From an uncultured Chthonomonas sp. (GTDB lineage: Bacteria; Armatimonadota; Chthonomonadetes; Chthonomonadales; CAJBBX01): a stretch of 34,070 bases of DNA. Below the pieces are notes generated by a model. It worked only from the letters and a program-made list of their open reading frames with translations. It did no database searches and was not told the origin of the DNA. Below are positions 10,164 to 34,070 of this stretch, in pieces. A program made the position numbers and the translations under genes. The stretch lies in NCBI GenBank assembly GCA_903885605.1, contig CAISJD010000005.1, positions 1-34,070 of the forward strand. Reading direction: 5' to 3'. Position 1 is the stretch's first letter. Each line of letters opens with the position of its first letter.

Positions 10164-10832
10164 TTACTGCAGGTGCAGCCAGTTGTGCATCAGGAACCAG
10201 ACGCGGTCGATCAGCAGGGCCATCCGCGCCATGACCGTGGAACCGAAGATGGCGCCGAAGGCGAACATCAGCATCAGCCGGCCGGTCCGGGCCGATGCCG
10301 CAACGACCTTGTTCTTCTGCTCGAAGGAGAAGAAGAAGTAGGTGAGCACCGTCACCATGATGAAGACGAACAGCAGGTTGTTCAGTCCGATCCCCAGCGT
10401 CGTGAGGCCCGAGCCTGTGGGGATCATCTCAGGTGTGACGTAGAGCGGTTTGAACGACCTGCGGATCTGGGGGATGTAGTCCGACGCCGTGGTCTGGAAC
10501 GCCTGGCCTGCGGCAAAGCCCATCAGGGTCCCGATGGCAATGCGGCTCATCCAGCTGTGCTTCTTCGAGAAGATGGTGTAGAAGAGCAATCCGAACCCGG
10601 CTACGAGCGCCCACGGCCATTGGCCGTCACGGAAGAGCGGCGTGAACCACTGCGGACCCAGCACCTCCGTCCACGTCGTCTTGATCAGGTAGCCTGCGGC
10701 AAGGCCGATGAAGATGTGCTCAAAGAGCCGGTAGACGCGGTTCTCGCGGTAGATCAGGGAGAAGAGGGCCAGCGTCCCGATGGCGCCGAACCAGACGCCT
10801 ATCGGGTGCGACCAGGTGGATGCGGTATCCAT
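10164..10832 (-). CDS. Polytopic membrane protein of unknown function, about six transmembrane segments
   Basis: The 222-residue protein has hydrophobic segments near residues 9-28, 38-55, 74-90, 96-113, 146-172 and 184-206. I do not recognise a family. The loop between segments 4 and 5 (ASDYIPQIRRSFKPLYVTPE) is conserved-looking and could face the outside. The start codon shares one base with the stop of the upstream gene (TGATG), so translation is coupled and the two products probably act together in the membrane. There is no charged motif of a transporter or enzyme that I can name. Confidence 0.75.
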   Translation of the reverse strand: MDTASTWSHPIGVWFGAIGTLALFSLIYRENRVYRLFEHIFIGLAAGYLIKTTWTEVLGPQWFTPLFRDGQWPWALVAGFGLLFYTIFSKKHSWMSRIAIGTLMGFAAGQAFQTTASDYIPQIRRSFKPLYVTPEMIPTGSGLTTLGIGLNNLLFVFIMVTVLTYFFFSFEQKNKVVAASARTGRLMLMFAFGAIFGSTVMARMALLIDRVWFLMHNWLHLQ

Positions 10833-11668
10833 CAGGAGTTGCCCTCCATCTTCTTCGTGGCATACATGCCGTAGTTGCCGAGGCCTATCAGGACGAACAG
10901 GAGTACGAGGGCCAGCGACACCGGCGTGATGGCCCGGGTGGTGAACCCCTTCTCGCCCAGCAACTGCTCATATTCCGCGGCGCCCTTGATACCGAACAGC
11001 ATCCCGCGGATCTGGCCCGAGTCGAGGTAGGTGTAGAGCTCCGGCGCCATGACTGACGTGGGCGCATAGCAGAAGGCGGCGTTGGTGGAGCCTACGACCA
11101 GGCCGACCCAGGATTTGTAGTTGCCCGACGCGGAGAACTCGGCGATGACGCTCAGGTCCTTCACGTTTCTTACGCCGGCCATGACCGGGTACTCGGCCAG
11201 CGGGCGGCGGTTCACCGAGTCGGTCTTCAGCGTCTCGTTGATGTCCCGCACCATGCCCTTCAGCGTCCCTGCGATATCCTGCCGAAAGCCGAGGTTGATC
11301 CAGTCCTTGCCATATTCGTACTTGTAAATCCTGGCCTGCTCCTCTGCGAGTTCCTGCGCCAGCGTGGTCGACTGGGCGTCGCCGAACGCGATCAGGGCGA
11401 AGCGGATATGACGCTTCATCAGGTGCTTGAGGACGACCTGCGTCTGCGGCCTGTTCTCGCCCTGTGTACTTGCGCTCCAGAGCGTCGAGACGAGCACCAG
11501 CTTGTCTTTCGGCGCGCTCTCGATGGCCTCATAGAACCGCGTGGCCTCAGGCGACACGGCCAGGGGCAAGGGGATCGGCACGATGAGGCCGATCACCACG
11601 ATGGCCAGTAGCGCGCCGTAGAGCCAGTGCCGATTGATGCGGGTGAGTGGATGCCCTGGGTTGCTCAT
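10832..11668 (-). CDS. Bitopic membrane protein with a large Rossmann-like extracytoplasmic domain, unknown function
   Basis: Of 278 residues, one transmembrane segment lies near 17-37 (LYGALLAIVVIGLIVPIPL) and one near 249-271. The roughly 210 residues between them form one domain with alternating strands and helices: KDKLVLVSTLWSAST, HIRFALIAFGD, YPVMAGVRNVKDLSVIAEFS, YKSWVGLVVGS and SGQIRGMLFGIKGAAEYE. The two-segment layout places this domain on a single side of the membrane, probably outside. I do not recognise a catalytic motif. It overlaps the preceding gene by four bases and the next gene by one base, so all three are tightly coupled. The hairpin topology suggests a receptor or scaffold subunit, but this is an inference. 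Confidence 0.75.
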   Translation of the reverse strand: MSNPGHPLTRINRHWLYGALLAIVVIGLIVPIPLPLAVSPEATRFYEAIESAPKDKLVLVSTLWSASTQGENRPQTQVVLKHLMKRHIRFALIAFGDAQSTTLAQELAEEQARIYKYEYGKDWINLGFRQDIAGTLKGMVRDINETLKTDSVNRRPLAEYPVMAGVRNVKDLSVIAEFSASGNYKSWVGLVVGSTNAAFCYAPTSVMAPELYTYLDSGQIRGMLFGIKGAAEYEQLLGEKGFTTRAITPVSLALVLLFVLIGLGNYGMYATKKMEGNS

Positions 11669-12477
11669 GACTCGTCCGCCTTCGCCTCAAAGTAGGCCCC
11701 GCGCTCCAGCGACAGCCAGATGCGTAGCGCGATGGCCAGCCCGCCGATGCCGAGGCCGAAGCCGATGGCTCGTTGGGCCGGCGCGTTCACCGTGGTGAGA
11801 AGCCAGTTGCTGATGTTGTCGAGCCGCAGCAGTGAGAGGTAGGAGCCCTTCACCGGCAGCCAGTGCGTCAGGTACTGCCCGATCGGGATCTGGCCCAGCA
11901 TCACCACCAGAGCCGCCACCATAAGCAGCGTGGCTTCGGCCGACTTGATGCGGAACGCCCGGTAGGCGGCCGACACAATGAAGAACGCCAGCACCGCGAA
12001 CATGGCGGCGTCGAAGCTGTTGAGCACGTCGCGGAACAGCGATCGGTAGAACAGAGTCTGCTCGAACTTGATGCCCGCCACGGCCATCACTACCATGGAG
12101 GTCAGCAGCAGGGCGCTGTTCTCCCAGCCGGACTTTACCTTGACCACGTTGGCGCCATGGATGCGGATCAGGCTAAGCACACCCAGCCCGAGCGTCATGC
12201 CGCCCAGCACGTTGGTGACGTTGCCGACGGTGGGTACGGCGAAGGTGAGGATGTTCTCATCCTGACCGTTGGCGGGCAGGAAGAACTCCAGGGCGTAGAA
12301 GAGGCCCGCGACGAATGTCACGGCGGCGATCACGGCCTTGCGCGCCTTGCCCGGAAGGGCCTGCAGGATGAGCACAGCGACGACGCACGCCACGACGCAG
12401 CCGGCCACGGCGCCGGCCAGCGCACCGCCGTGCAGCGCAGGGAATGCGCGGCTCAGGAACGACTGAATAGGGTTCAT
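11665..12477 (-). CDS. Polytopic membrane protein of unknown function, about seven transmembrane segments
   Basis: The 270-residue protein has hydrophobic segments near 16-41, 47-68, 78-105, 120-138, 154-174, 182-204 and 236-256. Glycine-rich helices such as GGALAGAVAGCVVACVVAVL and NVLGGMTLGLGVLSL suggest tight packing. GGAG lies twelve bases before the ATG. The stop overlaps the start of the Rossmann-like bitopic protein by four bases (ATGA). I recognise no family and see no transporter signature. With its neighbours it probably forms a multi-subunit membrane complex. Confidence 0.75.
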   Translation of the reverse strand: MNPIQSFLSRAFPALHGGALAGAVAGCVVACVVAVLILQALPGKARKAVIAAVTFVAGLFYALEFFLPANGQDENILTFAVPTVGNVTNVLGGMTLGLGVLSLIRIHGANVVKVKSGWENSALLLTSMVVMAVAGIKFEQTLFYRSLFRDVLNSFDAAMFAVLAFFIVSAAYRAFRIKSAEATLLMVAALVVMLGQIPIGQYLTHWLPVKGSYLSLLRLDNISNWLLTTVNAPAQRAIGFGLGIGGLAIALRIWLSLERGAYFEAKADES

Positions 12478-12492
12478 AGTTGCCGGCGTCTC

Positions 12493-13275
12493 CTACTTGA
12501 TCGTGAACCACTGGACGAAGAAGAACTCCTCGCCCAGGGGCTTGATGGACAGCGCCAGCGTTCCGAGTACCACGATGAGCAGCATCATCCCCTTGCAGAT
12601 GTCTTGTCCCACAAGGCTGCCCAGCAGCGTCGGCTCCCGCGAGATGTATGCGGAGGCCGCGTAGTACTCGTCGCCGATGATCGTGTAGTCGCAGCTGGCG
12701 ATGAAGAAGGGCAACTGCGTGGTCTGCACCGTGCCCGCCACCTGGATCGCGCCGACCTGCTGCCCGGACTCCGCAAAGATCAGCGATTCCGCGAAGAAGT
12801 CGCCGAAGAGGAAGCTCGCCGCCACCTTCTCGCGGTGGATCGTGCCCGCCACGCCCGAAGCGAATGCGAACTGCCTGTCGGACAGGAAGTAGACCGAGGT
12901 CGGGTCGAAGTCCTCCGGTCGGCCGGCGGATGCGTAGGACTCCCGCACGACCTCTTCTGCCACGGTGTAGAGCGCCGGGTCGGCCACAGGCATCAGGATG
13001 CGGTTGCCGAACTTGGCCGCGGTCTTGATGATGTAGCTGAAGATCGTCAGGGCCTGCAGCCCGACGACGCCCAGGCCGCTGAGGCCCGGCACCATCAGGA
13101 TTGGGCGGCCCATCTCCGTGGCGCGGCCCACAGCCTCATCAATGGCGTTCAGGCCGGGGATGCGGCGGATGAAGTACTTTCTGCCTCGCTGGGCCGTGAT
13201 GACTGTGACGAGCACGATGATGCTCCACAGGGCCACAAGGAACGCGGCCTCCCACTTGTCGCTGGCGTGGGTCAA
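12493..13275 (-). CDS. Membrane protein resembling DUF6754 proteins
   Basis: The 260-residue protein has an N-terminal transmembrane segment (AAFLVALWSIIVLVTVITA, about 10-28). It then has a conserved-looking part with RRIPGLNAIDEAVGRATEMG and RPILMVPGLSGLGVVGLQAL (to about 77), a soluble domain (about 90-225) and a final transmembrane segment near 228-247. The GRATEMGRPI segment matches my memory of DUF6754 proteins, but I cannot confirm it without a profile search. The middle domain includes FFAESLIFAESGQQVGAIQV and FFIASCDYTIIGDEYYAASA. The start overlaps the preceding small gene by four bases; the next gene starts 15 bases after the stop. The biochemical role is unknown. Confidence 0.75.
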   Translation of the reverse strand: MTHASDKWEAAFLVALWSIIVLVTVITAQRGRKYFIRRIPGLNAIDEAVGRATEMGRPILMVPGLSGLGVVGLQALTIFSYIIKTAAKFGNRILMPVADPALYTVAEEVVRESYASAGRPEDFDPTSVYFLSDRQFAFASGVAGTIHREKVAASFLFGDFFAESLIFAESGQQVGAIQVAGTVQTTQLPFFIASCDYTIIGDEYYAASAYISREPTLLGSLVGQDICKGMMLLIVVLGTLALSIKPLGEEFFFVQWFTIK

Positions 13276-13583
13276 GGTGTCTCTCCTCCAACAGGCGTCC
13301 TTTTCTGCATCGTTAGGTCCTCGATCCGGCGAATGAGGCGCTCAACATTGCTGCGCTCCTCAAGCAATCGCGATACGGTGTGAACCCGCTCAAAGCCGAT
13401 CAGCGGGGCCAGGAGCGGCGATGTCACCACGAGGCCCTGGCTGGCCATGAAGGTCAACGGCTTGTGCATCTCAAGGAACAGGATGGCAGGGGTCTCAAGG
13501 CCCCTGCCCACGACCTGGCTCGCGATCTTGTCCAGCACACGATCGCGTTCATCGTCGCTGATGGGCTCTTCCCAGCTAGGCAT
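13272..13583 (-). CDS. Small soluble protein of unknown function
   Basis: This 103-residue acidic-to-neutral protein has no signal peptide or transmembrane helix long enough to be certain. Residues 33-65 (ILFLEMHKPLTFMASQGLVV, then TSPLLAPLIGF) are moderately hydrophobic and may associate with a membrane partner. The C-terminal third (RLLEERSNVERLIRRIEDLT) should form an amphipathic helix or coiled coil. Coding status rests on four-base and eight-base overlaps with genes on both sides in the same operon. No family is recognised. Its size and position suggest an accessory cytoplasmic subunit of the membrane complex. Confidence 0.7.
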   Translation of the reverse strand: MPSWEEPISDDERDRVLDKIASQVVGRGLETPAILFLEMHKPLTFMASQGLVVTSPLLAPLIGFERVHTVSRLLEERSNVERLIRRIEDLTMQKRTPVGGETP

Positions 13584-14309: not shown

Positions 14310-14394
14310 AACCCGACCACTCGTAGCCCCCCCAACCACTACGGGCGCCTCCGGCATAGTGGCTGGGAGGCCGCTTGCGGAAAGGATAGCGCGG

Positions 14395-17300
14395 ATGAGA
14401 ATGACCCGGATTCCGACCGTGGGACTGTACGCCTTTGTCTCGGTCCTCGTTCTGAGTTCGGTGGTGGTCGGGCCAAGGGCTCTCGCCGCGGACGCATCGG
14501 AGCAGTACCGCAAGCTAACGGCTCAGATCAGCACCAAGAACCTGACCGAGACAGTCACCACGCTGGCCGGTTTCGGGTCGCGCGTGGCCGGCTATCCCGG
14601 TGATGCCCAGGCCGCCGACTACGTCGAGCAGCAGTTCGCCGAGATATTCGGCGTCGATAAGGTGCGCTCCGGTTCGTACGACGTGACCGTGCCGATCGAC
14701 AAGGGCGCGAGCATCACCGTGAACGGGGTAACCAAGCCCCTGTTCGCGCTCTGGCCGAACCTGGTCCGCACCTCCGAGCTACCTACCGAGGGCCTGACAG
14801 GCAAGCTCGTCTACGTCGGCGACGGCAAGATCAGCAATTTCAACGGCAAAGACGTCGAGGGCAACATCGTCCTGGCCGACTTCAACAGCCGGGCCGAGTG
14901 GCTCAACGCCACCCGCCTGGGCGCCCGAGCCGTCGTCTTCATCGCCCCAGAGACCACCATGCGGGGCGAGGCCGAAGCGAAGTTCATCTCCATCCCCATC
15001 AATATCCCGCGGTTCTGGGTCAGCAGGGCAGACGTGGCGCCGCTCCTGGTGAGCACCGCCGGCGCGCAGCCGCCGACCTGCACAGTCAAGTGCGACATGC
15101 CGTGGGAGTCGCGCAAGGCGAAGTGGTTCTTTGGATCCATCGAGGGCACCGACCCCAAGATGAAGGACCAGGTGGTCGTCCTGCAGTCCTACTACGACTC
15201 GATTTCCGTGGTGCCCGCCCTGGCGCCCGGCGCCGAATCTGCCTGTGGACTGGCGAGCATGCTGGAGTTGGCGCGTCTTTACAGGGCGAACCCGCCCAAG
15301 CGGTCTATCTACTTCGTCGCCACCAGCGCACACTTCCAGGCCTTGCAGGGCGTACGTGAGTTCCTCAACGCGCATATAGACGGCTGGGTGCAGCCCAGCA
15401 TGGCCGAGGTCGCCGTCGCCAAGGAGAACGCCGTTCGCACCGCCCTGTGGCTCGGCGGTATCGCGGTCCTGCTGTTGATCTGGCTGGCCACGCGGGTGAT
15501 GGCTGTCACGCCCGGCGGCAAGCGCCTGAATGCCGGTTCCTGGGTCCTGGCCGCCTTCGTGCTCTGTGCGCTGGTCCTGAACGTGCTCTTCTACCTGCAA
15601 CCGCGAGATCAGGCCCTGCGCAAGCGCGACAGCATCTACCTCTGGGCCGGGCTTGACCTCAGCAGCCAGAGCCGGGGCGTAGGCATCTTCTACAAGAGTT
15701 GGTTCTACGATGTCCGCGAGGATATCCAGGGCCGCTTCTCCGACATTGCCCGGGTCTGCCGCGAGAACGCGGAGAAGATCGGCAACGCGCTGGGTTTCGA
15801 CCCGAAGAAGGCCTTCGCGGATGGCGTCAACCCCGTCGATGGAAAGAACTGGCGTAACCATATCCCCGGAAAGCCGGCGTTCGACTCCGAAGTGATCACC
15901 ATGGCTCAGGGCCTTGGCGTCACCTTTGCCAGCATCGACGATGCACGCGCCCTGGTCGATACCCCGTTCGATACTGCCGATCGCGTGAACGTGGCCAACC
16001 TGGCGTTCCAGACCCGGTTGCTGGCCTGCCAGTTCTATCACATCCTGACGGACACCAACGAGCCGGGCGATGTGAATGCCCAGCGTATGCCCATCACCGA
16101 GCCCGCGAAGTGGTCTCGAATGGCGCTGCAGGGCGGCTTCGCCACGGTCCGCGGTCGCGTTACGCTCTACAACCCGAAGAAGACCTTCATCGCCTATGCC
16201 GACCCGGCGCTGGCGAACTCGCTGGCCGTGATCCGCAACCGGACCAAGAGCTACATGGGCGTCCGGGGCAATATGATCCAGGCCGTTTATGCCGACGAGA
16301 AGTCGAAGGAAAAGAACGTCTTCGAGTTCCGCGGTGTCGCCCCGCTCACGGCCTACGGCGGCAACGCTGTGACCCGCGTGGCCGCCTACCACCTGGACAC
16401 GCGGGATACCTCGCCCGAGCTCGATGCGGCGACCGGCAAGCCCACGGGCATGATGATCCCGAACCCGCGCCGCGGCGATATTGACTATGCGCCTGACCTG
16501 GGCGTCACCGGCGCCAAGTTCATGCCGCTCGACGTCATGGTCACAACCGCCCAGAAGGAAGTCTCGGTCATCCTCTTCCGGTGCGTTGCGACATCGGTCT
16601 ACGACCTGGTGGACCAGCAGTCGCTCCGCGCACTGGCTACCCTTGACGTGCTGGACGGCGACAGCAACGGTGAGCCGCGCATGTTCGGTTTCGCCATGGA
16701 CCCGCAGGACCCGGGCCTGGTGGGTTCCTACGTCGAGGACATGGCCGTCATCTTCTCGCAGCCCGGCGCCCGGCTGAAAATCCTGATGGGCGCAGGTCCC
16801 GGCGCCACGAGGTTGCTGCTGATCAACCCGGACAAGGAGCAGCCTGAAGGCCGCGGCTACCTTGTGGGCGGCGACCCCAACGAGGCGCAGGACGCCGATA
16901 TGCGGGGCAAGGTCACGCTGGACAAGTACGATCCCAAGCGTGAGATCGCCCGGGGCGGCGCCATCTACCATTCGGCTCTGCACGTGGCCAAGGATATGTG
17001 GACGCTGAACGACTTTCGCATCCGCCGCCTGGCCAAGTACCGCATCATCAACGAAGGCATTAACGACCTGCATTCCATGGCCAAGTCGTCGATCGATGAG
17101 GCCGAGAAAGCACGGGCCGACAGGAACTGGGAGCGCTTCGACGCCGAGAGCCGCGCAGCGTGGGGCTTCACGTCGCGGGCCTATCCCGACGTGCAGCGAA
17201 CCGCCATCGACGTGGTCCAGGGTGTCCTCTTCTATCTGGCCCTTCTCATTCCGTTTGCCTACTTCATGGAGCGGCTCGTCTTCGGCAGTTACGACCTGAA

Positions 17301-19335
17301 GCGCCAGTTGGGCTTTGCCGCCCTCATCTTCCTGGCCATCTTCTGGGTCTTCAGTCAGGTCCACCCGGCGTTCGATATCACGATGAACCCGGTCATTGTG
17401 CTGCTTGCGTTCGTGATGCTGGCGCTCTCGTGCATCGTGATCGCGCTCATCACAGGCAAGTTTGAAGAGCAGTTGAAGCAGATGAACCAGCAGGTATCCG
17501 GCGTCCACAAGGCGGACATCGGGCGCGTGTCGGTTGCCATGGCGGCCTTCAACCTGGGTATCTCCAACATGCGCCGCCGCAAGGCCCGCACCGTGCTGAC
17601 CTGCATCACGCTCGTCCTCCTGACCTTCACGGTGTTGTCGTTCACCTCCGTGGTGCAGACCATGCGGTTCAACCAGGTCCCAGCACCGGGTATGCCCCGG
17701 TACAACGGCTTGATGATCCGCACCGCCATGTGGGACCAACTGCAGGAGCCTGCCTACCGCCTGCTCGCCGACGAGTACGGTGCGAACCACTCGGTGGCCC
17801 CGCGCTCCTGGTTCTTCGGCACGCAGCTGGGCGAGCAGTCGTTCCTTACCGTGAAGCGCGGCGATGCCCAGTTCGATGCCAAGGCCCTGGTCGGCCTCAC
17901 GCCGCAGGAGTCGATGGTTACTCGACCGCAGGATGCGCTCATCGCCGGTCGCTGGTTCGGACCGGACGATGTCTACACGGTCATCCTGCCTGACGTGATA
18001 GCTGCGGCGTTACGGATCGATCCGCAGGACGTAGGCAAGGCGACGGTCTCATACGCCGGCGTCGACTATCAGGTGGTCGGCATCTACGACATCCAGAAGT
18101 TCAAGAAGCTTGTCGACCTCGACAGCGAGCCCCTGACGCCGGTTGACTTCATCCTGATGCAGAAGATGTCGCGCCAGGGCAAGTCAGGTGGAGAGACCGG
18201 CTTCCGTGAGTACACGCACCTGGAGCCGGACTCGATCTTCCTGGTTCCGTACCAGACGGCGACGAACCTGGGCGCCGAGTTGCGTTCCATCGCCATCGAC
18301 TTCGGCGATGCGGACCGCGTCACCAAGAAGCTCGGGCCGCTCATGCACCGTCTCGGCCTGAACCTCTACGCAGGTCGCGTCCCCAAGGAATCGGGCAGCA
18401 AACCGACCATCGTGCGCTATTCCTCGATCGCGGCGACGTCGAGCAAGGGGTTGGAACTCGTCTTCTTCCCGGTGCTGATTGCGGCGCTGATCGTTCTCAA
18501 CACGATGCTGGGCTCGGTCTTTGAGCGTGTGCGTGAGATCCATATCTTCTCGTCAATTGGTCTGGCGCCCTCGCACATTGCCATGCTGTTCATCGCCGAG
18601 GCCATGGTCTACGCCATCCTCGGATCTGTCGCCGGCTACCTTGTAGGGCAGTTGGCCACGAAGATTCTGGTCTGGACCGGCGCCTTCCAGGGCCTCTACC
18701 TGAACTTCTCGTCCGTCTCGGCGGTCATGACGACACTGATCGTCGTCGGTGTTGTGCTTCTTTCGACGCTCTATCCGGCGCGCAAGGCGGCTGAGGTGGC
18801 GACGCCCGCCATCGATCGCACGTGGCGCGTCCCGGACCCGGATGGTGACGACTGGACCATTCCTCTTCCGTTCTCCGTTACGGGCGAGCAGGCCAGCGGC
18901 CTCAACGGCTTCCTCCAGGAGTGGTTCTCGGCCTACGAGGAGTACAGTATCGGCGACTTCGTGACACAGAACGTCGAAGCCGACGAGTCGCCCGTGCCTG
19001 TGCCGCAGGCGCCGGGTAGCGCCAAGTCGCCGACGATGGGCACTATGTACAGCATCCGGTGCATGACGTGGCTGGCCCCCTTCGACCTGGGTGTGAGCCA
19101 GCGCGTGGCCATCGAGACCAGGCCCACGGATATGGCGGACGTGTTCGACATCAGCGTGACGATCCACCGCGAGAGCGGCGACATCTCGAACTGGAAGCGC
19201 GTCAACCGACGCTTCTTGAACACGCTGAGGAAGCAGTTCCTCATCTGGCGCACGCTGAAGCAGGGCGAGCGCGAGAAGTACCTGGCGCAGCAGGAGGGCG
19301 GCCCCGGCGCCGCCACTCCGGAACCGGCGGCTTAG
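14395..19335 (+). CDS. Giant FtsX-type ABC permease fused to a degenerate M28-peptidase-like domain
   Basis: The protein has 1646 residues from ATG 14395 (AAGGA eight bases upstream). After a signal or anchor segment (about 8-30), residues 38-330 follow the M28 aminopeptidase layout with a PA-like insert near 140-215: LAGFGSRVAGYPGDAQAADY, then VVVLQSYYDS near 256, GAESACGLASMLELARLY near 278 and SIYFVATSAHFQ near 308. The usual zinc ligands (HxD, DD and EE) are mostly lost, so it is probably not catalytic. Two transmembrane segments (349-369, 380-401), a domain of over 500 residues, three more segments (937-1020) and an FtsX/MacB core follow. The core has NMRRRKARTVLT and a segment at 1063-1086, an outer domain of about 260 residues, and segments near 1351, 1391 and 1441. 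The ATPase at 24568 is the likely motor. The cytoplasmic tail is about 185 residues. Confidence 0.85.
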   Translation: MRMTRIPTVGLYAFVSVLVLSSVVVGPRALAADASEQYRKLTAQISTKNLTETVTTLAGFGSRVAGYPGDAQAADYVEQQFAEIFGVDKVRSGSYDVTVPIDKGASITVNGVTKPLFALWPNLVRTSELPTEGLTGKLVYVGDGKISNFNGKDVEGNIVLADFNSRAEWLNATRLGARAVVFIAPETTMRGEAEAKFISIPINIPRFWVSRADVAPLLVSTAGAQPPTCTVKCDMPWESRKAKWFFGSIEGTDPKMKDQVVVLQSYYDSISVVPALAPGAESACGLASMLELARLYRANPPKRSIYFVATSAHFQALQGVREFLNAHIDGWVQPSMAEVAVAKENAVRTALWLGGIAVLLLIWLATRVMAVTPGGKRLNAGSWVLAAFVLCALVLNVLFYLQPRDQALRKRDSIYLWAGLDLSSQSRGVGIFYKSWFYDVREDIQGRFSDIARVCRENAEKIGNALGFDPKKAFADGVNPVDGKNWRNHIPGKPAFDSEVITMAQGLGVTFASIDDARALVDTPFDTADRVNVANLAFQTRLLACQFYHILTDTNEPGDVNAQRMPITEPAKWSRMALQGGFATVRGRVTLYNPKKTFIAYADPALANSLAVIRNRTKSYMGVRGNMIQAVYADEKSKEKNVFEFRGVAPLTAYGGNAVTRVAAYHLDTRDTSPELDAATGKPTGMMIPNPRRGDIDYAPDLGVTGAKFMPLDVMVTTAQKEVSVILFRCVATSVYDLVDQQSLRALATLDVLDGDSNGEPRMFGFAMDPQDPGLVGSYVEDMAVIFSQPGARLKILMGAGPGATRLLLINPDKEQPEGRGYLVGGDPNEAQDADMRGKVTLDKYDPKREIARGGAIYHSALHVAKDMWTLNDFRIRRLAKYRIINEGINDLHSMAKSSIDEAEKARADRNWERFDAESRAAWGFTSRAYPDVQRTAIDVVQGVLFYLALLIPFAYFMERLVFGSYDLKRQLGFAALIFLAIFWVFSQVHPAFDITMNPVIVLLAFVMLALSCIVIALITGKFEEQLKQMNQQVSGVHKADIGRVSVAMAAFNLGISNMRRRKARTVLTCITLVLLTFTVLSFTSVVQTMRFNQVPAPGMPRYNGLMIRTAMWDQLQEPAYRLLADEYGANHSVAPRSWFFGTQLGEQSFLTVKRGDAQFDAKALVGLTPQESMVTRPQDALIAGRWFGPDDVYTVILPDVIAAALRIDPQDVGKATVSYAGVDYQVVGIYDIQKFKKLVDLDSEPLTPVDFILMQKMSRQGKSGGETGFREYTHLEPDSIFLVPYQTATNLGAELRSIAIDFGDADRVTKKLGPLMHRLGLNLYAGRVPKESGSKPTIVRYSSIAATSSKGLELVFFPVLIAALIVLNTMLGSVFERVREIHIFSSIGLAPSHIAMLFIAEAMVYAILGSVAGYLVGQLATKILVWTGAFQGLYLNFSSVSAVMTTLIVVGVVLLSTLYPARKAAEVATPAIDRTWRVPDPDGDDWTIPLPFSVTGEQASGLNGFLQEWFSAYEEYSIGDFVTQNVEADESPVPVPQAPGSAKSPTMGTMYSIRCMTWLAPFDLGVSQRVAIETRPTDMADVFDISVTIHRESGDISNWKRVNRRFLNTLRKQFLIWRTLKQGEREKYLAQQEGGPGAATPEPAA

Positions 19336-19399: not shown

Positions 19400-19437
19400 G
19401 GGAACCGGGTGTTGGACCACAAGGGAGGACCGGACGC

Positions 19438-21474
19438 TTGGCAGTAGATGACATTGCCCGAGCTAGGGCCGTCGTAGAGGACGCCTCCAAGGAAGAGGGC
19501 GTACAGACTCAGGCACCCAAGTTCGAAGAGGGCTTCACCGCTAAGACCGTAGCGGGCGCCCTGTTCGTTGGGTTCGTGATGCTGCCCGGCGCCCTCTACC
19601 TGGGTCTCGTGGCGGGCCAGGGGCTGGGTGAAGCGGCTACCTGGGTCACCATCGTCCTCTTTTCGGAGGTCATGCGGCGATCCTTCTTGCCTATGAAACG
19701 GCAGGAGATTTACATCCTGTACTATGTGGCCGCCATGCTCTCCAGCTTGCTGATGGCGGACAGGGGCATTTCCGGCGGCCCATTCGGTGCCCTGATCTGG
19801 AACCAATACTTCCGTCAGGCGCCTCAGGCCGGCCTCATCGCCAGCGAGATTCCCAACTGGGTCGTGCCACCGGCCGGCTCGGCAGCCCTGACCAAACGGA
19901 CGTTCTTCGACTCGATGTGGGCCGTGCCCATTATGCTCCTTGTGATCAATGAGGTGCTGGGCCGTCTGAACTGGATGAGCGTCGGGTACGTGCTGTTTCG
20001 GGTGACTTCGGATGTTGAGAAGCTCCCGTTCCCCATGGCTCCCGTCGCTGCATCGGGTGCGACGGCTCTCGCAGAGGCCGCCAGTAAGGAGGAGTCGTGG
20101 CGTTGGCGCGTCTTCTCGATCGGCAGCGTTGCGGGCCTGGTCTTCGGCTTCTTCTATGTGGGTATACCGGTCTTCACCGGCGTCGTGTTCGGCAAGGCGC
20201 TCCAGCTGATTCCGATCCCGTTCTTTGACCTGACATCAAGCACGGAGAGCCTTCTGCCGGGCGCCCTGACAGGCCTGTCGGGCAACCTCGGCGCGGTGCT
20301 TGTCGGCTTCGTACTACCGTACCATATCGTCGCAGGCAGCGTCGTCAGTGCGCTCTTCTGCAAGGTCTTCCCGATGCCGAACATCCTTCACAGCATGGGC
20401 ATGTTCGGGGACGCTACTAACAACGGCTGGACGCGGGGCATGGACGCCATCAACACCCGTATGGTCACGGACATCAAGTTCTGGACCTCCATCGGTATCG
20501 GCCTGCAGTTGGCCGTGGCGTTCATGGGCATCGTGCAGGTGGTCCGAGCCCTGATGGCCTTCAAGAAGACGCTGTCGGGGAAGGGCATGTTCGCCGACGT
20601 GCCCAAAGGCCGCGGCGACGTGCCGATCTGGATTCCGCTGGTGACCTGGTTCTCAATCACCTGCTTCTATATCATCCTCGCCCAGTACCTCCTGAAGGTC
20701 GACGGGCACGGCGGCCAGTTCCCGATCTGGATCATGATCTTCTTCGGCCTGGTCTGGACGCCCATAAACTCCTTCATCAGCGCGCGAATGATGGGCCTCA
20801 CCGGTAGCGGCGTTTCGTTCCCGTTCCTGCGTGAAGCCTCGATCATGAAGAGCGGCTATCCGCATGCCGACATCTGGTACGCGCCCATTCCGTTGGCGGA
20901 CTACGGCCCGCTGGCTCAGCGCTTCCGGGAGGTCGAGCTGACGGGCACAAAGTTCACCAGCGTCGTCAAGGTAGAGTTTGCGGTTCTGCCGATCTTCCTG
21001 GTATCGTCGTTCATCTTCTGGGCCTTCTTCTGGCATACAAGTTCGATCCCGTCGTCTCAGCATCCGTACGCCCAGCGGTTCTGGCCCATCTCGGCCACCT
21101 TCTCGGCCATGTTCATGACGATCAACAAGCCGGATGGGCCGAAGTGGGTGCTTGAGGGCATCAACGGTATGCGCATCGCCTGGGGCATGGGGATCGGCCT
21201 GGTGGTCTACGGCATCATGTCCGTGTTGAAGCTGCCGATGCTCTTCTTCTACGGCATGGTGGGCGGCGTCGGGGCTTGGCCGTCAGATATCGTTCCGACG
21301 TTCTTCGGGGCCTGGCTGAGCCGCCGGTATTTCCAGAAGCGCTTCGGCGTGGACCAGTGGCGGCAGTACGCCCCGGTCCTGCTGGCGGGCTTCTCTTGCG
21401 GCACCGGCCTTATCGCCATGGCTTCCATCGCGCTGTCACTCATCGCCAAGTCGGTGAACTACCTGCCGTTCTAG
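19438..21474 (+). CDS. OPT-family-like transporter
   Basis: I chose TTG 19438 because GGGAGG lies nine bases upstream and MAVDDIARAR begins a normal hydrophilic N-terminus; this gives 678 residues. About 14 or more hydrophobic segments cover the rest. FPMAPVAASGATALAEAASK near 200, TPINSFISARMMGLTGSGVS near 440 and FPFLREASIMKSGYP are OPT-like features. Known OPT proteins import oligopeptides or metal chelates by proton coupling, but many bacterial relatives are uncharacterised. The gene lies between a giant ABC permease and a pilin-like membrane protein in one direction with small gaps, so a role in the same envelope system is likely. Secondary transport of peptides released by that system is one possible model; the sequence does not prove a substrate. 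Confidence 0.7.
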   Translation: MAVDDIARARAVVEDASKEEGVQTQAPKFEEGFTAKTVAGALFVGFVMLPGALYLGLVAGQGLGEAATWVTIVLFSEVMRRSFLPMKRQEIYILYYVAAMLSSLLMADRGISGGPFGALIWNQYFRQAPQAGLIASEIPNWVVPPAGSAALTKRTFFDSMWAVPIMLLVINEVLGRLNWMSVGYVLFRVTSDVEKLPFPMAPVAASGATALAEAASKEESWRWRVFSIGSVAGLVFGFFYVGIPVFTGVVFGKALQLIPIPFFDLTSSTESLLPGALTGLSGNLGAVLVGFVLPYHIVAGSVVSALFCKVFPMPNILHSMGMFGDATNNGWTRGMDAINTRMVTDIKFWTSIGIGLQLAVAFMGIVQVVRALMAFKKTLSGKGMFADVPKGRGDVPIWIPLVTWFSITCFYIILAQYLLKVDGHGGQFPIWIMIFFGLVWTPINSFISARMMGLTGSGVSFPFLREASIMKSGYPHADIWYAPIPLADYGPLAQRFREVELTGTKFTSVVKVEFAVLPIFLVSSFIFWAFFWHTSSIPSSQHPYAQRFWPISATFSAMFMTINKPDGPKWVLEGINGMRIAWGMGIGLVVYGIMSVLKLPMLFFYGMVGGVGAWPSDIVPTFFGAWLSRRYFQKRFGVDQWRQYAPVLLAGFSCGTGLIAMASIALSLIAKSVNYLPF

Positions 21475-21478
21475 GTTC

Positions 21479-22309
21479 ATGATGATGGCTAGCGGAGCAT
21501 CGGAACAACCGACTGACCACCCGGCGCGCGGTGCCGGCCTCACCGGCCGCATCGCGCGCCTGGTGGCGCTGTCGCTGCTGCTCGGGTGGTTGCCGCTGGT
21601 GGGGCAGGTGATCGCCGGGGCGGTGAGCGCGCGCGGAGCCGCACCGAGAGAACGGGGAGTCCTCGCGGCGGTTGCGGCGGCCCTGTGGGTCGCCCTGCTC
21701 GGGCTGGCATCCGGCCAGACGGCAAAGCTAAACGGCACCGATGTGGCGCTCAGGCCGTTGCTGGAGTTGGTGCCGGCGCTGGTCGGCGCGGCCGCGCTCG
21801 GATGCCTCGCGGGAGCAGCCTCTACGCGGATCGCCGGCGCAGCATTGCTTGTGGTGGGACTGGCTGCTACGGCGGCTCGGCTCCAGCCTCTCGTTGCCTT
21901 CGCGCGTGTGCTGGCGCCGTCGGAGTCGTACAAGGCGGAGAAGAACAAGACCTGCCCGGAGAACCTGAAGCAGCTGCACTCCGCCTTGATGCTCTATGCG
22001 GATAGCTGGGACGGCAAGCTGCCCCCGGCCGAGGCGTGGATGACGGCGATCCGCGACAACGTGCCGGAGGACGCCTGGATGCACTGCCCGGATTCGGGCA
22101 AGCCCGGCGGCTTCGGTTACGCGTTCAACAAGGCTCTGGGTGGGGCCTGCGTCAGCTCGGTTAAGGGCAAGGCGACGACCCCGCTGCTGTACGATAGCTC
22201 GGACGTGCAGGAGGACGCGACGGATAATGCGGCGTCGTTGCCTCGTCCGGGCAGGCACACGGGCCGAAACAACGTGCTGTACCTGGATGGGCACGTCGAG
22301 CAGAAGTAG
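21479..22309 (+). CDS. Polytopic membrane protein with a prepilin-like (H-x-DG) C-terminal head
   Basis: The 276-residue protein begins four bases after the OPT-like stop at the first of three consecutive ATG codons; no strong ribosome binding site is visible. Hydrophobic segments lie near 28-50, 60-77, 93-110 and 115-133. There is no prepilin cleavage signal. The C-terminal half then reads like the head of Armatimonadota/Planctomycetes pilin-like proteins: CPENLKQLHSALMLYADSWD, HCPDSGKPGGFGYAFNKALG, and RHTGRNNVLYLDGHVEQK at the end. So the usual N-terminal pilin helix has been replaced by a membrane domain. The head probably faces outside and may bind the same kind of partner as real pilins of this group. 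Function is unknown. A simple annotation as a pilin would be misleading. Confidence 0.75.
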   Translation: MMMASGASEQPTDHPARGAGLTGRIARLVALSLLLGWLPLVGQVIAGAVSARGAAPRERGVLAAVAAALWVALLGLASGQTAKLNGTDVALRPLLELVPALVGAAALGCLAGAASTRIAGAALLVVGLAATAARLQPLVAFARVLAPSESYKAEKNKTCPENLKQLHSALMLYADSWDGKLPPAEAWMTAIRDNVPEDAWMHCPDSGKPGGFGYAFNKALGGACVSSVKGKATTPLLYDSSDVQEDATDNAASLPRPGRHTGRNNVLYLDGHVEQK

Positions 22310-22345
22310 GCCTGCAGGTCGGTGGCAGGTTGTGACAGGAGCGCT

Positions 22346-23377
22346 ATGCCGGTTCGTTCAAGTGATGACGGGAACGTGGAGCAGGATGCTCCGCAGACCC
22401 TGATAGGGTGGCAGGGGGTTCGGTTCCTCCTTCCGCCGGAGTGGAACCTGACAGGGTTCTCCCTGGATCGATCCAACGGATACTTGAAAGTCGACTCCCC
22501 GGGCAGTATGTTTGCCCAGGTGAAGTGGACGGACCCGAAGTACACGCAGTCTCGCTCGGTTGCCGAGTGGGCATGGCGGAGTTGGAAGACATACCGGGGC
22601 GGTGGAGTCGCCGCGGGCGGCGACCCTGATCTGAAGCAGACGCTCGATGCGTTCCTGAAGGACACGGCCAAGGCGGCGAAGAAGAGCCGGTCTGAGTTCG
22701 AGTGCAAGGTCAAGCCGGAGAGCGAGGAGTTGGGCGGGCAACGCATGGCCCATAACTTCTCATGGACGGGTAACGGTCAGGGCCAGGGCAAGATCTGGTA
22801 CTGCCGCGAGTGCAAGCGCGTGGTGATCGCGCAGGTCGTGGGCACGGCGCGTGACCCGGTGCCGGCGGTGGCGTCCGTGATGTTCAGCGAGATGCGCGAC
22901 CACGGCGAGGACGGCTGGGAGACCTGGGCGCTGTTCGATCTGGTGATCGGAGTGCCGTCCAACTTCTCGCTGAAGGCGCAGAAGCTGATGTCGGGTTACC
23001 TGCGGCTGGAGTTCCAGCGCATCGGCGGGGAGAAGTTGGTGGTCGAGCGGTGGGGCCTGGCCGATGTGGCGCTTCGGCGCTTCTCGCTCGGCGAGTGGTT
23101 CGAGAAGACCTGTCCGGTTCGTCAGCATGCCGGTCGCGTCGCCGAGAGCGAGGTTAACGGGCATAAGGCTGTGATGACGTCAGGTTCAGTGAAGTCGCCG
23201 TCGGCGTGGGCGCGTGCCCTGGCCGAGGGCGCCGCAACCAAGAACCCGGCGCTGCACTATGAGGCAGCGGCCTGGTCCTGTCCCGAAGCGAACAGAATAT
23301 ACGCGGTTCAGGTTTGGCGGGGCAAGCAGACCGTCGGCCTGATCGATGAGGTGGTCGCCAGGTGCGAGTGCCACTAG
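22346..23377 (+). CDS. Soluble protein of unknown function, in the ABC transporter operon
   Basis: From ATG 22346 (AGGAG four bases upstream) the protein has 343 residues. It has no signal peptide or transmembrane segment and is probably cytoplasmic. I do not recognise a family. It has two tandem alpha/beta-looking halves that each begin with a tryptophan-rich strand: WQGVRFLLPPEWNLTGFSLD near 22 and LFDLVIGVPSNFSLKAQKLM near 197. Both read as versions of a phrase 'V-x-x-PSxF-L', hinting at an internal duplication. IWYCRECKRVVIAQVVG near 150 contains a Cys pair, and the C-terminus CECH adds two more cysteines and a histidine, a possible metal site. It overlaps the PqqD-like gene by 16 bases, so the two products probably act together. 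Confidence 0.7.
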   Translation: MPVRSSDDGNVEQDAPQTLIGWQGVRFLLPPEWNLTGFSLDRSNGYLKVDSPGSMFAQVKWTDPKYTQSRSVAEWAWRSWKTYRGGGVAAGGDPDLKQTLDAFLKDTAKAAKKSRSEFECKVKPESEELGGQRMAHNFSWTGNGQGQGKIWYCRECKRVVIAQVVGTARDPVPAVASVMFSEMRDHGEDGWETWALFDLVIGVPSNFSLKAQKLMSGYLRLEFQRIGGEKLVVERWGLADVALRRFSLGEWFEKTCPVRQHAGRVAESEVNGHKAVMTSGSVKSPSAWARALAEGAATKNPALHYEAAAWSCPEANRIYAVQVWRGKQTVGLIDEVVARCECH

Positions 23378-23793
23378 CCCTCCGTGCGCGGATGCTGGCA
23401 GGCAAGTACCTGCCGTTCCTGAAGCTGGGCCCGCCGACTGATCGCTCGGTGGCCTTCAGGCTACGGCCTGTGCGGAACTCGGCGATCGAGTGGGAGTGCG
23501 GCGAAGAAGGCGAGGCCTTGCTGAAGGTGCCTTACAGGAAGGACAAGCTGGGTAGGGCGCTGAGCTTTCTGGTCCATCTACCGGAGGCGAAGGCTGTCCA
23601 GCTTGATGAGGTCGGCACATTCGTCTGGCAGCTCTGCGACGGTGAGCATACGCTGGAGGCCATCGTCAAGGAGATGAGCGGCAAGTACAAGATGAACCGT
23701 CGCGAGGCCGAGATGTCGGTGACGACGTTCCTGCAGATGCTGTCCGAGCGGCGGTTTGTCGGGTTCTACGAGCGAGGGGGGAAGCAAAGATGA
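23362..23793 (+). CDS. PqqD-like (RRE-type) protein
   Basis: The 143-residue protein starts at GTG 23362 (GAGGTG eight bases upstream); GTG 23368 is possible. The PqqD-like winged-helix core spans about 65-137: LVHLPEAKAVQLDEVGTFVW, QLCDGEHTLEAIVKEMSGKY, REAEMSVTTFLQMLSERRFV. In RiPP pathways such domains bind the leader of a precursor peptide and hand it to a maturation enzyme. No radical SAM or other maturase and no obvious precursor gene is visible here. The 60-residue N-terminal extension is not part of PqqD. It overlaps the upstream gene by 16 bases and the downstream permease by four (ATGA), so it belongs to the transporter operon. It may recognise the exported substrate. Confidence 0.75.
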   Translation: MRVPLALRARMLAGKYLPFLKLGPPTDRSVAFRLRPVRNSAIEWECGEEGEALLKVPYRKDKLGRALSFLVHLPEAKAVQLDEVGTFVWQLCDGEHTLEAIVKEMSGKYKMNRREAEMSVTTFLQMLSERRFVGFYERGGKQR

Positions 23794-24503
23794 GTGAGCC
23801 GGTGAGCGCTTCCGGCACCGTGATTCGGCGCCAGATCAAGCTGCCGTTCACGAAGGCCGTGGAGATCAGCCTGAAGAGCATCCGTATTCGCTTCTGGCGA
23901 TCGATGATCACGGCCGCGGGCATCCTGCTGGGCATCGCTTTCTTCGCTTCGGTGCGCATGTCCGCCGTCTTCAGCCACGCCCAGCAGACAAGGGTGGATG
24001 AGAAGCGGGCGACGCTGGCGCGCGGCGGCAAGCTCTCTGCGGAGGACGTGATCCTTATCAACTCCGCGGCTGCCAACGCCAAGGAAGAGGCCGCCGCCGG
24101 CACACGCTTGCAGTGGCTGTCGATCATGGCCCTCCTGGTCTGCACGGTGGGCATCACCAACTCCATGCTGATGTCCGTCACCGAGCGGTTCAAAGAGATC
24201 GGCACCATGAAGTGCCTCGGAGCCCTGGACGGCTTCATCGTGAAGCTCTTCTTCATCGAGTCCTGCTTCCTCGGCTTCATCGCATCTGTGCTGGGCTTCG
24301 TTGTTGGATGGCTCGTGATCTCGCTCATCCGGCTTGCCATGGATGGCGTCGAGGTCTTCGGCCCCTATTTCTGGATGCAGTCGTTGCGCCTCTGCGGGCA
24401 GTCGGCGGTGATCGGCACGGTCCTCACGTTCTTAGCGACCATTTTCCCGGCGTACCGGGCCGCGAAGATGCCGCCCGTGGCGGCGTTGCGTGCTGAGGTA
24501 TAG
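23790..24503 (+). CDS. Short FtsX/MacB-type ABC transporter permease
   Basis: The 237-residue permease has transmembrane segments near 36-56, 109-131, 153-178 and 207-226, the normal four of the FtsX family. The start SLKSIRIRFWRSMITAAGIL and the module ITNSMLMSVTERFKEIGTMK, CLGA are typical coupling regions. The outer loop between the first two segments is only about 55 residues; MacB-type permeases have about 200 there. It therefore has almost no extracytoplasmic domain, in contrast to the giant permease of the same operon. It should pair with the ATPase encoded next. The start overlaps the PqqD-like gene by four bases. Confidence 0.88.
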   Translation: MSEPVSASGTVIRRQIKLPFTKAVEISLKSIRIRFWRSMITAAGILLGIAFFASVRMSAVFSHAQQTRVDEKRATLARGGKLSAEDVILINSAAANAKEEAAAGTRLQWLSIMALLVCTVGITNSMLMSVTERFKEIGTMKCLGALDGFIVKLFFIESCFLGFIASVLGFVVGWLVISLIRLAMDGVEVFGPYFWMQSLRLCGQSAVIGTVLTFLATIFPAYRAAKMPPVAALRAEV

Positions 24504-24526
24504 CTTTCTGGTATGACTCAGGGTGT

Positions 24527-24546
24527 GGTGCGCCGACGGGCGCGCC
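24527..24546 (+). other. Hairpin in the leader of the ABC ATPase gene
   Basis: GGTGCGCC (24527-24534) pairs with GGCGCGCC (24539-24546) with one G-T wobble and a GACG loop. It lies in the 64-base gap between permease and ATPase genes, about ten bases before the ribosome binding site. It may tune relative expression or protect RNA ends; no T-run follows. Confidence 0.35.
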
Positions 24547-24567
24547 CCTTGCGAAAGGATGTCGCGC

Positions 24568-25311
24568 ATGGCCAATGAGTACGTGGTGCGGACCAAGGAT
24601 CTGGTCAAAGAGTACACGATGGGGGACCAGACCCTCAAGGCGCTGAACGGTGTGAGCCTCGATATCTTCCGTGGCGAGTACATCTCCATCATGGGCCCGT
24701 CCGGTTCCGGCAAGTCGACGCTCTTCAACGCCGTCGGCGGGCTCGACAAGCCGTCCAGCGGAAGCGTGTTCATCAACGATGTCGACATGGCCCAACTGGA
24801 CGCGCAGGAGCTGGCCTACCTCCGCTGCCACACCATCGGCTACATCTTCCAGACCTTCAACCTGATCCCGGTTATGACTGCCCTTGAGAACGTGACGCTG
24901 CCGACGGTTTTCGCCGGCATGTCCACGGACGAAGGCGTCGAGCGCGGCATCGAGCTGTTGGAGCTGGTGGGCCTCGGCGGCCGCCTGCACCATAAGCCCT
25001 CGGAACTCTCCGGCGGCCAGCAGCAGCGCGTGGCAATCGCCCGGTCGCTGGCGAACAACCCATCGATCATCCTCGCCGACGAACCCACGGGTAACCTTGA
25101 CCTGAACACCGGCAAGGAGATCATCGACCTCCTGAAGTCGTTGAACAAGGACCAGGGCGTCACGATCATCTCGGCGACGCACGACCTGAAGATGCTGGAC
25201 GTGTCGGACCGGATCGTCTGGATCCGCGACGGCCAGATAGCCAAAGTCGAAGAGCGCAAGGACCTGGACATCCGCATCGGCGAGATGGAGGGCCAGGAGG
25301 CGCTCCACTAG
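24568..25311 (+). CDS. ABC transporter ATP-binding protein of the LolD/MacB type
   Basis: The 247-residue ATPase powers FtsX-type permeases. Walker A is GPSGSGKST (43-51), the Q-loop is at Gln95, the signature LSGGQQQRVAIARS starts at 148, Walker B is IILADEP (167-173) with catalytic Glu172, and the switch His is His205 in ATHDLK. IFQTFNLIPVMTALENV is characteristic of the LolD/MacB/FtsE group. I chose ATG 24568 because AAAGGA lies eight bases upstream; ATG 24559 would put that site against the start. It is the only ATPase in the operon, so it probably serves the short permease and the giant fused permease, perhaps as one asymmetric complex. The C-terminal tail after residue 225 (RKDLDIRIGEMEGQEALH) is short. 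Confidence 0.95.
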   Translation: MANEYVVRTKDLVKEYTMGDQTLKALNGVSLDIFRGEYISIMGPSGSGKSTLFNAVGGLDKPSSGSVFINDVDMAQLDAQELAYLRCHTIGYIFQTFNLIPVMTALENVTLPTVFAGMSTDEGVERGIELLELVGLGGRLHHKPSELSGGQQQRVAIARSLANNPSIILADEPTGNLDLNTGKEIIDLLKSLNKDQGVTIISATHDLKMLDVSDRIVWIRDGQIAKVEERKDLDIRIGEMEGQEALH

Positions 25312-25534: not shown

Positions 25535-29902
<4,368 letters not shown>

Positions 29903-29956
29903 GCCGGTTCGACACCCCGCGAGGGGCATGACAGCAATGTCGCGAAGCTGCCGGCT

Positions 29957-29976
29957 CCAGGGCTGCAAGGCCCTGG
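29957..29976 (+). other. Perfect hairpin in the rpoB-rpoC spacer
   Basis: CCAGGGC (29957-29963) and GCCCTGG (29970-29976) form a 7-bp stem with a 6-base loop in the 187-base gap between rpoB and rpoC. No T-run follows. It may be an RNA-processing or attenuation element that separates the two messages, or chance. I found no clear promoter in the rest of this gap. Confidence 0.4.
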
Positions 29977-30089
29977 GTCCGGCGGCGTTCGCCTGTTTCA
30001 TCAGCAAGTTCGCATCGGTTGCCGGGCAGTCCAGCGTCCGGCGCATCGGCGCGGTATGTTCGCGTGTAGAGCGGACGGGAGGGTTGTAA

Positions 30090-33000: not shown

Positions 33001-34070
33001 AGTTGCTGCACCACGTCGGCGGCGCCATGACGAAGGCGGAGGCCGAGGAGCTAGTTGCACGCGGCGTTCGCCGTGTCGCTCCCGGCCACAAGCCGAAGAA
33101 GGCCGACGCCATCCAGAACATCACGAGTTCGCTGGAGATCACCGTTCGCTCGGTCCTCACCTGCGAACTGCGCCAGGGCGTCTGCGCCACCTGCTACGGC
33201 CGCGACCTGGCGACCGGGCAGCCCGTAGACATCGGCGTGGCGGTGGGCATCATCGCCGCCCAGTCGATCGGAGAGCCGGGAACCCGGCTCACAGTGACGG
33301 TCGCTCCCGCAGCCGGCGGCGGCGCAGTGCGGCATCCGCAGAGCGCTCTGCGCGAGTTGCACGAGGACATCCGGCGCGGTCACGCAAACTTCGAGGAGGA
33401 GGGCGGCTCCCGCGCGCGCGCCCGGTCGGTCCAGTCGGTCCTCAAGGTGCTTGAGCACCAGGTCTGCGGCCTGCTGCGTGTCGTGGAGCTCCTCGAGGCC
33501 CGACGGCCCAAGGGACAGGCCATCATCACCGAGATGGAAGGCAAGGTCGTCGATATCGACCGCAAGGGCCTTCGCCACGTGGTGATCCACTCGCCGCTGC
33601 GTCTCACCGACCCGACCATCAAGCTGGTGGGCGAGGTGATCGCCGAGGACATCATCGATCCGGGTAGCGGCGACGTCGTCGTCCGCGCCGGTGAGACCAT
33701 CATTGAGAAGCTGTCGCGCAAGGTAAAGGACCTGGAGCTGCCCGAGGTCCAGGTTCGGCGCACCATCCTGGTGCCCTACCGCGGCGAGCTTGAGGTGGAG
33801 GTCGATGACGTGGTGGCCCCCGGCGACCGCCTGACGGAAGGCCCGCTGGACCCGCACAAGGTTCTGGAGCTCATGGGACCCAAGGGCCTGCAGGAGTACC
33901 TGATCCAGGAGATCCAGCACGTCTACAAGGGCCAGGGCGTGGACATCAACGACAAGCACGTCGAGGTGATCGTTCGCCAGATGCTGAAGAAGCGGCGCAT
34001 CATCCAGCAGGGCGGCACGCCGTTCCTGCCCGGCCAGATCGTGGACAAGTTCGCCTTCGAGGACGCCAAC
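30090..34070 (+). CDS. rpoC: DNA-directed RNA polymerase subunit beta' (RpoC), C-terminus cut by window edge
   Basis: The frame runs from ATG 30090 (GGGAGGG six bases upstream) to the edge, 1327 codons. RpoC holds the catalytic magnesium. Visible are the first zinc site (Cys60, 62, 75, 78), the lid/rudder region ([20 protein letters not shown]), the catalytic NADFDGDQM with Asp551, Asp553 and Asp555, the bridge helix ([20 protein letters not shown]), and the second zinc site around [20 protein letters not shown]. The end, [17 protein letters not shown], is normal. Two catalytic elements are abnormal. After [12 protein letters not shown] (ending at 1065) the trigger loop reads [13 protein letters not shown] instead of QLTMRTFHTGG. 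The bridge helix begins TCSARKG instead of THGARKG (Cys859, Ser860). The region before the second zinc site also carries extra residues (about 940-1010). Confidence 0.97.

Follow-up and report, generated by a model that had tools for sequence, protein, structure and literature searches.

A predicted M28 aminopeptidase fold with a rewritten metal site, fused to a Type VII ABC permease in Armatimonadota

Type VII ABC proteins perform mechanical work in the cell envelope; they typically act via a periplasmic partner, and it is this partner that sets their role. The M28 peptidase fold can also serve purposes other than hydrolysis, and the transferrin receptor, nicastrin and nicalin, all membrane-tethered, have this fold without the normal zinc site and use it for binding. 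Nicalin has been modelled on nicastrin (PMC7505659). In Type VII proteins of the MacB kind, ATP hydrolysis is turned into periplasmic movement, and no cargo passes through the inner membrane (PMC5985334). YbbAP holds the hydrolase TesA above its periplasmic domains and is thus a precedent for a hydrolase on a Type VII ABC protein (PMC12646458), and FtsEX-EnvC provides one for an adaptor (PMC7668044). In the gene described here, this partner appears to be part of the permease itself. Its fold is still recognisably that of an enzyme, with a remodelled active site, and the fusion is conserved in about two thirds of the Armatimonadota genomes sampled.

The window, i.e., the whole stretch of 34,070 nucleotides from an uncultured Chthonomonas sp. 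that was analysed, contains a large permease of 1646 aa, counted from the likely start codon, the ATG at 14395, which is preceded by GGAAAGGA at 14379-14386; the stop codon ends at 19335. Residues are numbered here with codon 14404 as residue 1. The earlier note had proposed an M28 layout fused to an FtsX-type permease, and both parts were found in one open frame with significant Pfam matches, at 1.3e-7 for Peptidase_M28 (residues 246-324, over the cut-off) and 9.7e-14 for FtsX (residues 1354-1463). Along the chain, the export signal or TM segment is followed by the pseudo-M28 domain, with its PA insert and TM hairpin, the beta domains, three extra TM helices, the MacB-like periplasmic core domain with the FtsX core, and a C-terminal cytosolic domain. 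The features of the gene are:

14395..19335, + strand: large permease gene (single open frame; Pfam; Armatimonadota homologues end to end)
14416..14472, + strand: N-terminal hydrophobic segment or signal anchor, residues 5-23 (hydropathy scan, sequence)
14506..15408, + strand: pseudo-M28 N-terminal half, residues 35-335 (Pfam M28; PDB profile match to 2ek8)
14797..15039, + strand: PA domain insert, residues 132-212 (Pfam PA, 2.8e-6)
15451..15597, + strand: two-TM hairpin inside M28, residues 350-398 (hydropathy; helices in the model)
15634..16071, + strand: pseudo-M28 C-terminal half, residues 411-556, with D418 and D519 (VIA-align to 1amp)
16156..16983, + strand: all-beta periplasmic region without a family, residues 585-860 (secondary structure of the models)
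17212..17451, + strand: three extra TM helices before the FtsX core, residues 937-1016 (hydropathy; model helices)
17590..18096, + strand: FtsX TM1 and MacB-like periplasmic core domain (Pfam MacB_PCD below cut-off; fold matches)
18463..18792, + strand: FtsX C-terminal permease domain, residues 1354-1463 (Pfam FtsX; fold matches)
18844..19257, + strand: conserved cytosolic C-terminal domain, possibly helix-grip/Bet v 1-like (VIA fold match)

An ALA-ADA stretch after the N-terminal hydrophobic segment is a possible signal peptidase site. Hydropathy and positive loop residues suggest that the M28, beta and MacB-like parts lie outside and the C-terminal domain inside.

The C-terminal half of the protein carries an FtsX domain and four TM helices around a periplasmic domain, as judged by Pfam, fold and hydropathy. 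Pfam MacB_PCD matched residues 1063-1231 with 4.1e-5, below its cut-off, and the fold of this core domain matched the periplasmic domains of MacB and LolE. The model of residues 557-1640 (pLDDT 79, pTM 0.67) resembled MacB, LolC/E, FtsX and HrtB, and the FtsX domain reached a fold Z of 13-16 to HrtB, MacB, LolC/E and FtsX. The cognate LolD/MacB-type ATPase gene sits in the same operon and is conserved in relatives. By fold and ATPase type, the permease belongs to the Type VII ABC superfamily, and it shares with MacB, LolCDE, FtsEX, YbbAP-TesA and HrtBA the FtsX core, the MacB-like periplasmic domain and the LolD/MacB-type ATPase. Unlike these relatives, it has a fused pseudo-M28 domain with PA insert, beta domains, three extra TM helices before the FtsX core, a folded cytosolic C-terminal domain, a minimal partner permease and an operon with an OPT-like protein. 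In comparison with LolCDE, both the permease and the ATPase fall below the curated LolC/E and LolD cut-offs: the permease scored 19.8 against 362 bits with NCBIfam lolCE, and the best NCBIfam model for the ATPase, LolD (2e-70), gave 236.7 against 307.75 bits. MacB has its ATPase fused N-terminally to the permease, whereas here the ATPase is a separate gene. The cytosolic C-terminal domain (18844-19257) is highly conserved; its match to helix-grip/Bet v 1 folds (VIA Z 8.6-9.4, about 3.1-3.4 Å over about 115 residues) is suggestive only.

The M28 half was then compared with known structures. A PDB profile search with the permease family matched 2ek8 at 2.5e-25. Residues 30-860 were modelled with AlphaFold2 from 31 window and locus sequences (mean pLDDT 87.4, pTM 0.87), and the best Foldseek matches of this N-terminal model in the PDB were PA-containing M28 aminopeptidases and the transferrin receptor. 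VIA-align superposed it on the Vibrio/Aeromonas aminopeptidase 1amp with a Z of 30.0 and 2.6 Å over 269 of 291 residues, spanning model residues 1-523. Structure prediction thus gave a full M28 fold besides the MacB/LolC/FtsX fold. The M28 fold, with its PA insert, is predicted to be complete, because VIA-align placed residues from both sides of the two-helix hairpin on 1amp. The domain end proposed earlier, at 15400, was too early, since the C-terminal half continues past the hairpin to about 16071. The hairpin itself is a lineage feature, found in 11 of 43 relatives, and was discarded as a defining part of the protein on this count; in the other relatives this site is nearly empty or holds a helical insert, and L111 has several hundred additional residues here. 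The PA-domain M28 aminopeptidases (2ek8, BSAP/YwaD and PaAP of P. aeruginosa) have the same fold, domain order and PA insert. The permease differs from them in its fusion, in the replacement of the zinc ligands and the catalytic Glu and, in the lineage of the window, in the splitting of M28 by the two-TM hairpin.

To describe the metal site, we used Vibrio/Aeromonas aminopeptidase numbering for the zinc ligands His97, Asp117, Glu152, Asp179 and His256 and for the catalytic Glu151, and counted residues in 43 non-redundant relatives with less than 80% identity. The three altered motifs lie where the earlier note had put them:

15184..15201, + strand: QSYYDS, residues 261-266, His97 replaced by Tyr263, second-shell Asp265 kept (43-relative alignment)
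15229..15249, + strand: GAESACG, residues 276-282, bridging-Asp loop (hhalign gap; alignment counts)
15325..15336, + strand: SAHF, residues 308-311, Glu151 replaced by His310 and Glu152 by Phe311 (43-relative alignment)

The His97 position was occupied by Y in 35 relatives, F in 4, S in 2, P in 1 and H in 1, and one relative, L061, retains the His of HxD; the second-shell Asp99 position (Asp265) was D in 43/43. The GAESACG loop corresponds to GADDNASG minus one residue, and the bridging Asp117 is deleted according to hhalign or swapped for Glu/Asp278 according to HMMER; position 278 was E in 31 relatives and D in 12. At the catalytic Glu151 position, H was found in all 43 relatives, and at the Glu152 position, F was found in 33 and E in none. 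Two positions can be added to the earlier description, i.e., the kept Asp179 (D418, D in 43/43) and His256, replaced by Asp (D519, D in 42 and E in 1). Of the two-zinc ligand set, only Asp179 is surely kept. H310, at the catalytic-Glu position, is the sole invariant His of the M28 region, and on this ground intact ligands at unaligned positions were ruled out.

The six ligand and catalytic positions averaged 4.19 bits, as compared with 2.40 for the region (p 1.2e-4 from 100,000 random draws, which ignore the correlation of neighbouring sites). In the control set of 24 other M28 proteins of Armatimonadota, the His, Asp, Glu, Asp and His were invariant, and the second Glu was kept in at least 90%. 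Since the altered positions are kept across relatives and intact M28 proteins retain their ligands, the alignment indicates that an ancestor lost the canonical two-zinc site and acquired in its place a different residue set, which has been retained. The description of the zinc site as eroded is therefore right in that the canonical ligands are gone, across the phylum as well as in the window, but misleading in that the altered positions are strongly conserved; decay of a redundant M28 domain was rejected for the same reason. As the M28 fold is present and the canonical metal site is not, the permease should not be called an M28 peptidase. The conserved E/D278, H310, D418 and D519 are candidate metal holders and could support some chemistry.

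Nicalin ranked third in the PDB profile search with the permease family (1.3e-11). In searches with two profiles of intact M28 proteins, it was absent from the top 60. The Pfam Nicastrin profile matched 4 of 31 relatives, with a best E of 0.0029. Because profile depth differs between the searches, we treat the nicalin resemblance of the M28 domain as a lead only. Unlike the permease family, nicalin/nicastrin and the transferrin receptor are eukaryotic and not ABC-linked.

The permease was found in 196 of 291 Armatimonadota genomes, and this distribution ruled out an assembly artefact as the origin of the fusion. Near-identical proteins occur in Chthonomonas/Armatimonadetes metagenome-assembled genomes. 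Among about 100 genomes searched from other phyla, three (G327, G328 and G364) carry the permease. None of the sequences collected, these about 100 genomes included, contained an active M28-FtsX fusion, and a plasmid search gave a generic ABC permease only. Literature searches on M28 plus FtsX, pseudopeptidases and Armatimonadota gave no description of such a fusion. The architecture can thus be called new, as previously suggested, as far as literature and PDB searches reach.

Downstream of the permease, neighbouring genes between 19335 and 24523 overlap or are separated by short gaps, as expected of a single operon:

19405..21474, + strand: OPT-like multi-pass membrane protein, start approximate (conserved neighbour; weak OPT match)
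21479..22309, + strand: 276-aa protein of limited conservation whose C-terminus is pilin-like/DUF1559-like (Pfam below cut-off, E 0.049)
22322..23377, + strand: 351-aa conserved protein without export signal, with a CxxC motif (conserved neighbour)
23362..23793, + strand: PqqD-like protein of the RiPP-recognition type (Pfam PqqD, 2.1e-14)
23790..24503, + strand: minimal FtsX permease, 237 aa, likely the partner permease (Pfam FtsX, 3.2e-21)
24523..25311, + strand: LolD/MacB-type ABC ATPase (Pfam ABC_tran, 4e-33)

The minimal FtsX gene overlaps the PqqD-like gene by ATGA. The order permease, OPT-like, 351-aa, PqqD-like, minimal FtsX and LolD-like ATPase is usual in most loci with enough flank; in L054, L058 and L062 the minimal FtsX and ATPase genes lie upstream of the permease, the genes are not adjacent in L055, L056, L063, L064, L071 and L073, and in several genomes the OPT-like gene is apart from the permease. 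In all three genomes outside the phylum, the OPT-like, PqqD-like and ATPase genes are present, as is the minimal FtsX gene in two of them. The OPT-like gene is likewise present in 196 Armatimonadota genomes, with both genes in 188, the permease alone in 8, the OPT-like gene alone in 8 and neither in 87, giving an odds ratio of about 256, a value inflated by shared ancestry; most of the discordant genomes are assemblies in fragments. The assignment to OPT is weak: Pfam OPT matched 1 of 19 members of the family (E 3.8e-4), the copy in G208 exceeded the cut-off, and the copy in the window had no Pfam OPT match.

The combined analyses are best explained, in our view, by a mechanotransmission ABC complex whose fused periplasmic domain serves as a non-hydrolytic receptor and recognises a peptide-like or lipoprotein end; we give this reading roughly an even chance. 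The gene product would form, together with the minimal permease, a heterodimer powered by two ATPases, and would be the larger of the two permeases in this Type VII complex; movement of the stalk, driven by ATP, would open and close the periplasmic domains. The pseudo-M28 pocket would bind its ligand uncut, most likely a terminus of a peptide or of an envelope (lipo)protein, and binding would select or release whatever cargo or partner is handled by the ABC motor. The pseudo-M28 domain would be the built-in partner, because Type VII proteins act via a periplasmic partner, and by analogy with YbbAP. The OPT-like and PqqD-like neighbours make a peptide-like cargo plausible, although they are no proof of it. 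The title of PDB entry 2anp, which calls an aminopeptidase E151H mutant 'functional', weighs against the non-hydrolytic part of this reading. The His of HxD retained in L061, the separation of the OPT-like gene from the permease in several genomes and the weakness of the OPT assignment also count against it.

The retained replacement set argues for a binding pocket and leaves room for a new metal site. If the site were rewired rather than dead, E/D278, H310, D418 and D519, with D265 and E496, would make up a new site for a metal or for acid-base chemistry. The domain would then be an enzyme of altered chemistry, comparable to TesA on YbbAP (PMC12646458), and would process the cargo that the ABC motor brings to it. 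This would fit the invariance of H310 and D418 and the retention of the other two (D519 in 42/43, E/D278 in 43/43), and glutaminyl cyclases, which are among the fold neighbours, show that other chemistry is possible on the M28 fold; nevertheless, the loss of both canonical His ligands, the aromatic residues at two ligand positions (Y263 and F311) and the shortened bridging-Asp loop make it an unlikely solution. Recruitment of the peptidase fold as a binding domain, already proposed in the earlier note, is the best reading, though still an inference because the invariant E/D278-H310-D418-D519 set could be such a metal site. Pocket residues show some of the strongest conservation in the domain, which would be needless in a structural spacer or a dimerisation arm without ligand; we regard this role as very improbable, even though identity to the window averages 51% in the M28 half and a higher 59% in the FtsX half, and the inactive transferrin receptor ranks with the best fold matches.

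Signalling in the manner of FtsEX was also weighed. The ABC pair would then transport nothing, and the pseudo-M28 domain would dock an independent enzyme of the periplasm, possibly a cell-wall hydrolase, and activate or inhibit it. The FtsX fold of the permease, the FtsEX-EnvC precedent (PMC7668044) and a LysM insertion at the PA region of one distant relative are consistent with this, but LysM occurs in that relative only, there is no hydrolase in the operon and the conserved OPT-like transporter partner suggests small cargo, so that we hold this for a poor prospect. Similar doubt applies to a wider proposal, which we put forward only as a whole: that these proteins form a distinct Type VII ABC class, widespread in Armatimonadota and present also outside this phylum, in which the pseudo-aminopeptidase, with its remodelled His/Asp/Asp/Glu pocket, might be the built-in receptor of a peptide-like cargo that an OPT-type transporter also handles, and the M28 module a bacterial cousin of nicalin/nicastrin. 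The permease family makes it possible to test directly how the fold of an enzyme turns into the receptor of an ABC motor, and it points to a widespread envelope system, without described function, in the little-studied phylum Armatimonadota.

Some further observations were made on the relatives and the neighbouring genes. The 2437-aa relative from outside the phylum (L111:3044-10354) has a LysM match and further LysM-like stretches near its PA domain, and the M28 loop that holds the hairpin in the window carries in this protein a long charged insert, probably a coiled-coil. The minimal FtsX permease of the window is almost without periplasmic domain, and in L024, L119 and L120 this partner is longer by several hundred residues between TM1 and TM2. 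The CxxC motif of the 351-aa protein, which had no Pfam family, reads IWYCxxCxRxVIAQV. Upstream, a run of membrane or short proteins at 10164-13583 on the minus strand is divergent from the permease; five of these were searched (three with Pfam, two with NCBIfam) and gave no family. The operon is followed at 25535-34070 by rpoB and rpoC, recognised by eye in the translations.
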